The translations under genes and the position numbers were made by a program. The notes beneath the pieces were generated by a model, which was not told the origin of the DNA, did no database searches, and saw only the letters and a list, made by a program, of their open reading frames with translations. Below are positions 431 to 19,018 of a stretch of DNA of 29,739 nucleotides, in pieces; within the stretch, counting starts at the first letter, position 1, and every line of letters starts with the position of its first letter. The stretch is from a virus: positions 1 through 29,739 of IMG/VR virus record IMGVR_UViG_3300019871_000058; one strand, given 5' to 3'.

Positions 431-492
431 CAATGACCAATGACCAATGACCAATCACTAATCACTAATCACTAATGAGTAATCTCTAATGG
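431..492. repeat. Heptamer tandem array (AATGACC/AATCACT)
   Basis: Eight to nine near-identical 7-bp units run in strict phase: CAATGAC three times, CAATCAC, TAATCAC twice, TAATGAG, TAATCTC, then TAATGG. The array fills the gap between two minus-strand regulator genes and its last unit overlaps the stop codon of the S24 repressor gene. Similar units recur in several other intergenic gaps of this window (about 6190, 8271-8396, 20230-20290, 21580-21620, 22231-22320). Confidence 0.85.
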
Positions 493-1187
493 TTATGCTT
501 CTTATGTATATCCTTAACCAAACAGAGCTTTTTAATATCCGCTATCTTTATTACAAACGGTGCATACTTAAGCTTGCTTCCTATCATTTCGGCCGAGTTG
601 TCAGAGTGGGCGATAACCTCGTCTGCGTTATCACCTGCCAAAAGCCTTTTATACATCCGGTAATCGCCCCATTCAATATAATATACCTCGCCCGGTAATA
701 TTTTCTTATCATGAATAACCTTTAAAGCCACCCAGCAGCCATTCTCCAGGTATGGGTACATGGAGTGCCCCCAAACCGGCAACGCAAAATCACAATCCTC
801 AATTCCGGGGAAATTCATCCGCCCTACCGATTGTGTGTCATTAATATCATTATAAACCTCTACGCCTGATGCGGTAGCTATTATTTCATACATGGGGATG
901 CCGTCGCTAATTTTTGAAATTGCTGTATTTTCAGAATATTCTTTGTTAGCTTTTCCATCAATAAAAGTTCCATATTTCTCTTTAAATAATTTCAATTTTT
1001 CAGGGTCGATATTTTGCCGGCTCTTCACAATTTCTGTAATAGAGCTGATCGAATTAAAACCAAGTTCTGCCGCCAGTAGGGCATTACCGTTAAAAGCTTT
1101 ACCCTTCAATTGATTGTAAAGGATAATAAACTCCAGTGTTTCAGGCCTTATCCTTTTGATCTTATTGGGTTTTTCTTCTGCTTCCAT
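486..1187 (-). CDS. S24-family phage repressor (LexA/CI-like)
   Basis: A 233-residue protein with an N-terminal DNA-binding region (about 15-70, helical, with 'GNALLAAELGFNSISSITEI' as likely HTH) and a C-terminal S24 peptidase fold. The catalytic pair is visible: Ser142 in WGHSMYPYLENGCWVALK and Lys180 in YRMYKRLL. Family members keep a prophage silent and are inactivated by RecA-stimulated self-cleavage. Here the expected Ala-Gly cleavage site is not obvious: the equivalent stretch near residues 103-110 reads ATASGVEV. Induction may therefore use a different scissile bond or an antirepressor. A 7+4+7 dyad lies 36 bp upstream of the start codon and is the natural candidate operator. The start at 1187 is the only ATG giving the full HTH region. 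Confidence 0.85.
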   Translation of the reverse strand: MEAEEKPNKIKRIRPETLEFIILYNQLKGKAFNGNALLAAELGFNSISSITEIVKSRQNIDPEKLKLFKEKYGTFIDGKANKEYSENTAISKISDGIPMYEIIATASGVEVYNDINDTQSVGRMNFPGIEDCDFALPVWGHSMYPYLENGCWVALKVIHDKKILPGEVYYIEWGDYRMYKRLLAGDNADEVIAHSDNSAEMIGSKLKYAPFVIKIADIKKLCLVKDIHKKHNH

Positions 1188-2343: not shown

Positions 2344-2348
2344 GCTAC

Positions 2349-2395
2349 TGACAAAACAGCGCCACCAATATATATTTCAAAACACCTTAACTTTG
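2349..2395 (+). promoter_or_regulatory. Composite promoter, copy 4 (TGACA-N6-CGCCA, N21, TAACTTTG)
   Basis: TGACA (2349-2353), 6 bp, CGCCA (2360-2364), CC, exactly 21 bp, then a perfect -7 box TAACTTTG (2388-2395). The same layout and spacing occurs three times before the capsid operon at 18.6-18.9 kb. Here the right half-site is degenerate (CGCCA instead of TGTCA), but the -7 box fits the Bacteroidota consensus better. Transcription would begin near 2402, just before the structured element at 2411. Confidence 0.6.
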
Positions 2396-2410
2396 TATAT
2401 ATCCGTTATC

Positions 2411-2500
2411 TGCGTTAGGGATTGAAGCGGATACCGGCCCGTGGCTAATGCTTGTGCAGTATGAGCGTAAAGCCCGGCCCGCCTTTTCGGCGGGAACGCA
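2411..2500 (+). ncRNA. Candidate structured RNA (or dispersed structured repeat)
   Basis: About 90 GC-rich bases in an AT-rich gap. Closing stem TGCGTT (2411-2416) with AACGCA (2495-2500). An internal hairpin CCCGCC (2478-2483) with GGCGGG (2489-2494) has a 5-base loop TTTTC. CCGGCCCG occurs twice, 40 bases apart (2434 and 2474), so alternative pairings are possible. A promoter-like element ends 15 bp upstream and no ORF of note crosses it. It could be a small RNA, a 5' leader of the 103-aa gene that starts at 2573, or a dispersed repetitive element. It does not match any RNA class I can name. Confidence 0.45.
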
Positions 2501-2572
2501 CAAAAGTTCTTTAACTAGTCATTACATCGCTACTTAATTTAGGTATCTTAGTTCTGTTATTGCTTAAATGAT

Positions 2573-2884
2573 ATGGAAAACCAAACAACGGTGAATTTGA
2601 GACTATCGGCGCAACGGGCGCTTTTGGGAATGATTTATCCCGAAATCAGGGCTATTACTATTGGAATTGAATTCATGCAAAATATCGAAACGCTTAAAAT
2701 AATTTGTTACTTAGATAGGGTGCCTACAGAGTTTGATTATCAAAATATTGGAGAGATAACTGGATATATACTTGGCGATTTCAACTTGATACACAAAGTT
2801 GAAGAAATATGTGAATATACTACTGAGCCAATAGGTAAATTAAAAATGCTGGATAGTTTGGTTTATTACAGATTAGAATCATAA
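2573..2884 (+). CDS. Hypothetical protein, immunity-protein-like (103 aa)
   Basis: A 103-residue soluble, acidic protein. The start (NLRLSAQRALLGMIYPEIRAI) followed by a strand-rich middle with 'LKIICYLDRVPTEFDYQNI' and a C-terminus 'KLKMLDSLVYYRLES' resembles a class of short Bacteroidota proteins that I associate with toxin-immunity or orphan immunity genes. This is from memory of the pattern only. No toxin gene is adjacent. It follows the composite promoter and the structured element at 2349-2500, so it may be expressed from that promoter with a long leader. Convergent with the RRM gene; the gap contains that gene's terminator. Confidence 0.6.
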   Translation: MENQTTVNLRLSAQRALLGMIYPEIRAITIGIEFMQNIETLKIICYLDRVPTEFDYQNIGEITGYILGDFNLIHKVEEICEYTTEPIGKLKMLDSLVYYRLES

Positions 2885-18607: not shown

Positions 18608-18611
18608 TTAC

Positions 18612-18658
18612 TGACAAAATGGTGTCACCGCACAATTAAAGTATTCTGTCGATATTTG
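18612..18658 (+). promoter_or_regulatory. Composite operator-promoter, copy 1
   Basis: TGACA (18612-18616), AAATGG, TGTCA (18623-18627), CC, 21 bp, GATATTTG (18651-18658). The dyad covers the place of a -33 box and the -7 box has G for T at its first base. A CGGTGAAATCA motif follows near 18671. It belongs to a 411-bp gene-free region (18608-19018) made mostly of three such units. Confidence 0.65.
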
Positions 18659-18712
18659 TAATACACCTGACCGGTGAAATCAATAACTAATTAGCTCAAT
18701 CATCATAACTAC

Positions 18713-18759
18713 TGACAAACTACTGTCACCACTAATCAAAATAATTATCCCGACCTTTG
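18713..18759 (+). promoter_or_regulatory. Composite operator-promoter, copy 2
   Basis: TGACA (18713-18717), AACTAC, TGTCA (18724-18728), CC, 21 bp, GACCTTTG (18752-18759). It starts 101 bp after copy 1, is followed at 18764 by an ATGCC-N4-RGCAT dyad, and again by CGGTGAAATCA near 18790. Confidence 0.65.
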
Positions 18760-18763
18760 ATAT

Positions 18764-18777: not shown

Positions 18778-18832
18778 AACCAACACAATCGGTGAAATCA
18801 TAAATCAATCGATGTAATCACAAAAAATATAC

Positions 18833-18879
18833 TGACAAACTACTGTCACCACCCAGTTAAACTATTACCCCGATATTTG
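18833..18879 (+). promoter_or_regulatory. Composite operator-promoter, copy 3
   Basis: TGACA (18833-18837), AACTAC, TGTCA (18844-18848), CC, 21 bp, GATATTTG (18872-18879), then TATATATCAGTTAGCAAT. The upstream 20 bp are identical to copy 2. It is the copy nearest the protease gene, leaving a leader of about 130 bases in which a weak hairpin CAGGA/TCCTG (18908-18923) is followed by a T-rich stretch. Confidence 0.65.
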
Positions 18880-19018
18880 TATATATCAGTTAGCAATTAA
18901 GAATGAACAGGACTTCTCTCCTGCTATATTTTTAATAATAGTCTTTCGGTTTTTCCGACTTACAGACATCTCGACTAAAACATCTAAATACTCAAATCTA
19001 ATATCTCACATCTAAAAC

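Follow-up and report, generated by a model that had tools for sequence, protein, structure and literature searches.

The window analysed here, a stretch of 29,739 nucleotides, comes from an IMG/VR virus record, a linear contig of 29.7 kb from a Sphingobacteriaceae prophage. Its prophage genes encode an S24 repressor, a terminase, a head protease, capsid and tail proteins, and a lysozyme. The part between 1200 and 5600 is matched in all 149 Mucilaginibacter genomes searched, mostly through a 138-aa ORF (1777-2193), an RRM gene, and a gene for an Omp85-like protein. These matches indicate that the three are apparently host genes. Downstream of the 138-aa ORF lie an operator-promoter, a structured unit, a boxA-like sequence, and a 103-aa ORF (Table 1).

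Table 1. Features of the operator-promoter copies, the structured unit, and its surroundings. Positions are those of the window.
Feature	Position	Strand	Remarks
Operator, degenerate copy of TACTGACA-N6-TGTCACC	2346..2368	+	right half CGCCA; 17/23 match to consensus; matrix score 20.3
-7 box TAACTTTG, Bacteroidota TAnnTTTG type	2388..2395	+	spacing from operator as in capsid array
Extended Flavo-1 repeat	2412..2505	+	own covariance model (R1), 73.7 bits, E 3e-16; Rfam RF01705, 25.4 bits
P1, closing stem of repeat	2412-2416/2495-2499	+
Conserved AGGGATTGAAGCGG of repeat	2417-2430	+
GGG/CCC pairing of repeat	2418-2420/2473-2475	+
Variable hairpin P2, followed by AGCGTAAAGCCCG		+	P2 after GGG of GGG/CCC
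P3, hairpin of repeat	2478-2483/2489-2494	+	then tail ACAAAA
BoxA-like GTTCTTTAAC	2506..2515	+	directly behind repeat
103-aa ORF, no family	2573..2884	+	relatives in 3/149 genomes
Capsid array operator-promoter, copy 1	18609..18662	+	matrix score 49.2
Capsid array operator-promoter, copy 2	18710..18763	+	matrix score 65.6
Capsid array operator-promoter, copy 3	18830..18883	+	matrix score 67.6; upstream of head protease gene

An earlier note on this DNA had placed a fourth copy of the capsid-array promoter near 2349. This copy is real but degenerate, and it spans 2346-2395. The three capsid-array copies consist of TACTGACA-N6-TGTCACC followed by [GT]AnnTTTG. At 2346 the operator sequence is TACTGACAAAACAGCGCCACC (2346-2366), with the left half-site intact and CGCCA in place of TGTCA at the right half-site, and the stretch that opens with the operator and closes with TTTG measures exactly 50 nt, equal to that of the copies at 18609, 18710 and 18830. 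TAnnTTTG is the usual form of the Bacteroidota -7 box, and the box of the 2346 copy is more canonical than those of the capsid array; similar boxes also accompany operator copies dispersed over chromosomes. The promoter was scored with a 54-nt weight matrix built from 43 sites of 19 other loci, with the window sequence excluded. The score at 2346 compares with -12.5 at the next best position in the window and with 10.4 as the best score over 200 Markov-1 random windows, which argues that the copy, though degenerate, is real. As the earlier note also stated, the promoter leads into a paired element: the structured unit starts 16 nt past the -7 box, and putative read-through transcription of the unit from this promoter is plausible.

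The TGCGTT/AACGCA closing stem (2411-2416/2495-2500), the CCCGCC/GGCGGG hairpin (P3) and the two copies of CCGGCCCG described previously are all present, and the bounds once given as 2411-2500 are better drawn at 2412-2505 (94 nt). This is the sole match of covariance model R1 within the window. The window copy is among the 28 seeds of that model, and independent support comes from the 25.4-bit match to Rfam. Folding of the single sequence is unremarkable (z = -1.64), and the structure is established instead by comparative covariation. Across 106 distinct copies 94.1% of the cells are paired, and double-sided changes amount to 301 cells, compared with 85 ± 13 in shuffles. The covariation score is 0.457 (shuffled, 0.128 ± 0.008; slid, at most 0.120). 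The alignment used for these values was fitted to the model; an alignment made by MAFFT alone (A1) gives the same pairing support. The repeat is a three-way junction with strong covariation. Its general order is P1 (GCGTT/AACGC and compensated variants), AGGGATTGAAGCGG, P2, AGCGGAAAGCCCG, P3, the second half of P1, and a CCCAAAT tail, and most copies are 70-135 bp long. The edges are sharp. Conservation stops at Y|GCGT-AGGGATT on the upstream side and at CCCAAAT on the downstream side, the flanks are unconserved, and nothing conserved was found upstream of the unit across the aligned copies.

The earlier note had proposed a covariance search of the element against Rfam. At the gathering threshold this search returned no match, nor did a tRNA/tmRNA scan of the window, and a permissive scan identified Flavo-1 (RF01705; E 0.0038) below its gathering score of 42. 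Flavo-1 as described by Weinberg et al. 2010 (PMC2864571) has the same core, GATTGAAGCGGA ... AGCGGAAAGC, and a variable hairpin. The unit described here differs in being longer, with the closing stem P1, the third hairpin P3 and the CCCAAAT tail, in being high-copy, and in extending to Spirochaetota and phages. Gathering-score matches to RF01705 are present in 16 of 17 loci, mostly of Flavobacteriaceae, at the same positions as the pattern copies, and the window copy aligns in A1 with such members (e.g., L011 and L040) through the shared core and fold. None of the Mucilaginibacter copies scanned against RF01705 reaches the gathering score, and the window copy belongs to a Mucilaginibacter subtype (compare L041, L112, L121 and L148). 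Rfam's Flavo-1 "sRNA" would then be a truncated subtype of a longer Bacteroidota repeat, which forms part of the explanation favoured below and carries the likelihood given there for the whole. Flavo-1 is counted among the most abundant sRNA families in a review (PMC9029176). In the F. psychrophilum transcriptome, its matches lie sense or antisense to transcripts, and many lie outside transcripts (PMC9723704).

Scans with the core sequence recovered the same unit in viral contigs and gave at least 120 pattern matches in GTDB genomes of Flavobacteriaceae, Chitinophagaceae, Sphingobacteriaceae, and termite-gut Spirochaetes. R1 detects copies in 59 of 61 Mucilaginibacter genomes, at 0-67 per genome (52 in M. 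aquariorum), counts that are lower bounds with 71 candidates scored per genome. Six genomes of other genera hold 27-118 copies each; Algibacter pectinivorans has 118 and Pedobacter psychrophilus 107, of 150 scored candidates. Three 98-bp copies in Foetidibacter luteolus (L038, L061, L065) are 100% identical and have unrelated flanks. The unit usually has no such promoter, and no linkage between the two is seen across the copies; many dispersed copies of this kind are what the earlier note had named as the mark of a repetitive element. The copies lie between ordinary genes in all orientations, and by ORF calls that are crude the orientation of repeat and gene is balanced (++29, --23, -+14, +-12), with 14 of 78 sites lying between divergent genes. 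The 3' edge tends to be close to a stop codon (within 10 bp), and among the 35 chromosomal copies with a gene stop on their 3' side this is true of 12. Five genomes (L042, L050, L103, L124, L154) encode the same large TerB-like protein at a distance of no more than about 230 bp from a Flavo-1 copy.

Among the neighbouring genes, which were searched for an enriched transposase, phage terminases alone stood out. In seven viral contigs (L003, L004, L007, L011, L155, L156, L157), the gene for the large terminase is followed, 2-15 bp past its stop codon, by the repeat, always antisense. These seven terminases are mutually 22-90% identical, and the sequence of P1 varies among the phages yet stays paired. 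In several relatives the repeat is missing, and an ordinary hairpin-T terminator occupies its place. The position behind the terminase suggests that the repeat is kept for a function or strongly prefers this target, and not that it inserted neutrally. The window has a different kind of terminase, with no repeat copy behind it.

Selection on RNA tolerates G.U pairs far more readily than A.C mismatches, and pairing restricted to Watson-Crick (WC) pairs is expected where a single DNA strand or a cruciform is selected, as in REPs and the ends of IS200/IS605 elements. P1 has 519 WC pairs, no G.T and 5 A.C in 530 cells, with variants that span U-A, G-C, A-U and C-G. P3 has 197 WC pairs and no G.T in 198 cells, and P2 has 530 WC, 8 G.T and 21 A.C. 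Control tRNAs of the same loci have 318 WC pairs, 32 G.U (9% of 350 pairs) and no A.C. The family tolerates neither G.U nor A.C. Its pairing statistics are of the DNA type and argue against RNA, and the near absence of G.U points to selection on folded DNA rather than RNA, although Rfam files Flavo-1 as an sRNA. Counting against the DNA reading, the internal loop (GATTGAAGCGGA/AGCGGAAAGC) is rich in purines and similar to those found in RNA. The reverse strand was also considered as the RNA strand, owing to a conserved C.A in P2 that would be G.U on that strand, but the variable positions show no clear excess either way.

The operator-promoter, searched as CTGACAAA-N4-TGTCANCA-N20-GANNTTTG, is present in 103 of the 149 Mucilaginibacter genomes at 1-25 sites each; the reversed control pattern has 0 matches in the same genomes. 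Dispersed sites (L350-L451) were noted in G071, G078, G105, G108, G111, G123, and others. In several genomes the operator-promoter precedes a RepA-like AAA ATPase family. Many promoter copies of G105 and G108 run into hairpin leaders that end in GTTCTTTGA and have no gene just behind. The analysis of G108 covered 24 of its 25 sites; 13 of these leaders have GTTCTTTGA or a one-mismatch form of it within 330 nt. Leaders of this promoter class hold repeats of other kinds as well: many of those in G108 contain an inserted inverted repeat, several of them another one than Flavo-1, and a single leader (L426) contains a Flavo-1 unit, oriented as in the window. Among the 90 loci fetched around promoter copies (L362-L451), L426 is the only one seen to run into a Flavo-1 unit. 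A second dispersed inverted repeat (GTTGACTCACCCCGAC ... GACCGGGTGAGTC) lies between the operator-promoter and GTTCTTTGA in many leaders of G108 (L432-L450).

The boxA resemblance of the sequence behind the window copy is weak by itself, with 3 occurrences of GTTCTTT[AG]A in the window against 0.8 expected. The order of promoter, Flavo-1 and GTTCTTTAAC is most economically explained as a promoter leader interrupted by a repeat, so the repeat was most likely inserted between the operator-promoter and the boxA-like sequence, upstream of the 103-aa gene; a transcript from this promoter, if it is active, would probably include the 103-aa ORF. No relative of the 103-aa protein was found in viral contigs, and its relatives in Mucilaginibacter have neither the promoter nor the repeat nearby, so a conserved unit of gene and repeat was rejected. 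In G124 the 138-aa ORF and the RRM gene are about 117 bp apart, and operator, repeat and 103-aa gene are all missing from this gap. Together with the loci of the 103-aa relatives, this gap indicates that a segment of about 0.7 kb with all three is specific to the lineage of the window. Nucleotide searches of phage and plasmid collections gave no match. Searches for the repeat in 23 loci from related viral contigs, whose coverage of the region is partial, found no copy. In 20 other genomes the syntenic prophage loci are without it, and the one exception is a decayed copy beside the operator array of G123.

These results are likely to be explained by a high-copy, non-coding repeat, dispersed in Bacteroidota and some Spirochaetota, that spreads as folded DNA and is passive at the promoter. 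It would most likely move as folded single-stranded DNA or as a cruciform, mobilised in trans by some nuclease or transposase in the manner of REP elements. The window copy would have landed between an operator-promoter of a dispersed Mucilaginibacter regulon and the leader of that promoter, consisting of the boxA-like sequence and the 103-aa gene, and would be at most passively transcribed.

The earlier note had read the element as a phage small RNA of the capsid regulon or as a structured leader of the 103-aa gene. What stands of this reading is the real promoter leading into a structured element; the dedicated role is not supported. It is quite unlikely that the 2346 promoter, co-regulated with the capsid genes, makes a phage or prophage small RNA or a dedicated leader that functions by its fold. 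The promoter does point at the element, the chromosomal promoter at L426 runs into a unit of the same orientation, and the promoters of G105 and G108 lead into hairpins with no gene just behind. However, the element is a genome-wide repeat that usually has no promoter, it is seen behind the promoter in 1 of the 90 fetched loci, its pairing is almost without G.U, the syntenic loci lack it save for the decayed copy, and the relatives of the 103-aa gene have neither promoter nor element. A strand-neutral 3'-end element, a conserved hairpin that acts as terminator or 3' mRNA stabiliser and spreads by its usefulness there, is very unlikely. The constant position behind seven divergent terminases, where several repeat-free relatives have ordinary terminators, and the stop-facing chromosomal copies that lie so close to the stop fit such an element, and the repeat resembles intrinsic terminators and 3' UTR hairpins in often lying just past stop codons, most clearly at phage terminases. 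It differs from them in having no U-run, a strongly conserved internal sequence and an inconsistent strand; orientation to genes is otherwise balanced, with sites between divergent genes, and the window copy stands behind a promoter and in front of a gene.

The dispersed folded-DNA repeat favoured here resembles REP elements and REPtrons with TnpA-REP (RAYT) in being short, structured, non-coding, high-copy, mostly intergenic and probably mobilised in trans. It is longer than REPs, forms a three-way junction rather than a single hairpin, and has no GT[AG]G foot (the 5' edge is Y-GCGT(T/G)-AGGG), and its copies do not directly flank TnpA-REP genes. A copy lies within about 1.5 kb at 3 of 36 Y1 loci, against about 1 expected from the density of the repeat, and in no case does the copy border on the gene. 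A Y1/RAYT partner is not supported, and no other transposase or nuclease could be linked to the repeat. The same explanation with a named enzyme, in which the repeat would be the REP of the RAYT/TnpA-REP subclass 2.6 system of Bacteroidota, is unlikely. That subclass has "atypical secondary structures" (PMC6006769), and the phylum, the structure and the high copy number fit; class-2.6-like genes (YIH[QN]NP) are present in Mucilaginibacter, and copy number is weakly correlated with the number of Y1 genes (Spearman 0.29, p 0.025). Against it stand the genes not flanked by the repeat, the missing foot, though subclass 2.6 lacks this too, and G001, in which 52 copies occur and the only Y1 gene detected is IS200-type, with none of RAYT type. 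An integron attC site was dropped on inspection of the sequence, the AAC/GTT ends being in the wrong order. A repeat copy at the prophage operator array is common to G123, G105 and G111 and absent in G104; an empty site with target duplication was sought at these four arrays, and no clean junction was found.

The prophage of the window (486-1187 and 5615-29739) is syntenic across Mucilaginibacter (L326-L345). Relatives of its head protease are present in 75 of the 149 genomes, mostly at 66-81% identity; often their gene order is the same and the host RRM gene is again some 16 kb away from them. Terminase, capsid, portal and operator array are conserved. Where syntenic loci extend over the region upstream of the head protease, most have the array there, and so does a related phage contig (L031). 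The prophage resembles either a domesticated one that is inherited vertically or a gene transfer agent; a literature search on gene transfer agents in Mucilaginibacter yielded no relevant paper.

Since 2010 Flavo-1 has been catalogued among bacterial sRNAs without an assigned function. A wider proposal is offered tentatively, as possible but short of probable: Flavo-1 would be a family not of RNAs but of mobile folded-DNA repeats, among the largest such families in Bacteroidota, moved in trans. In Mucilaginibacter, Flavo-1 and other repeats would insert into units of promoter, leader and boxA. A single dispersed operator would be common to these units and to a prophage that occurs across the genus, is inherited vertically and is possibly a gene transfer agent, so that some copies become structured leaders of the regulon. 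If Flavo-1 is a mobile DNA repeat, its annotations across Bacteroidota are misleading, and the search for the enzyme is well defined. The position of the repeat behind phage terminases and the operator common to the genus-wide prophage and dispersed chromosomal sites are directly testable. Past the terminase stop of several Flavo-1-free phages with a terminase of the family that elsewhere precedes the repeat (L260, L266-L271) there is another, shared motif, AGGGCGTTGCGTGG, often with AGCATATTACA nearby, which is possibly a packaging site or another repeat.
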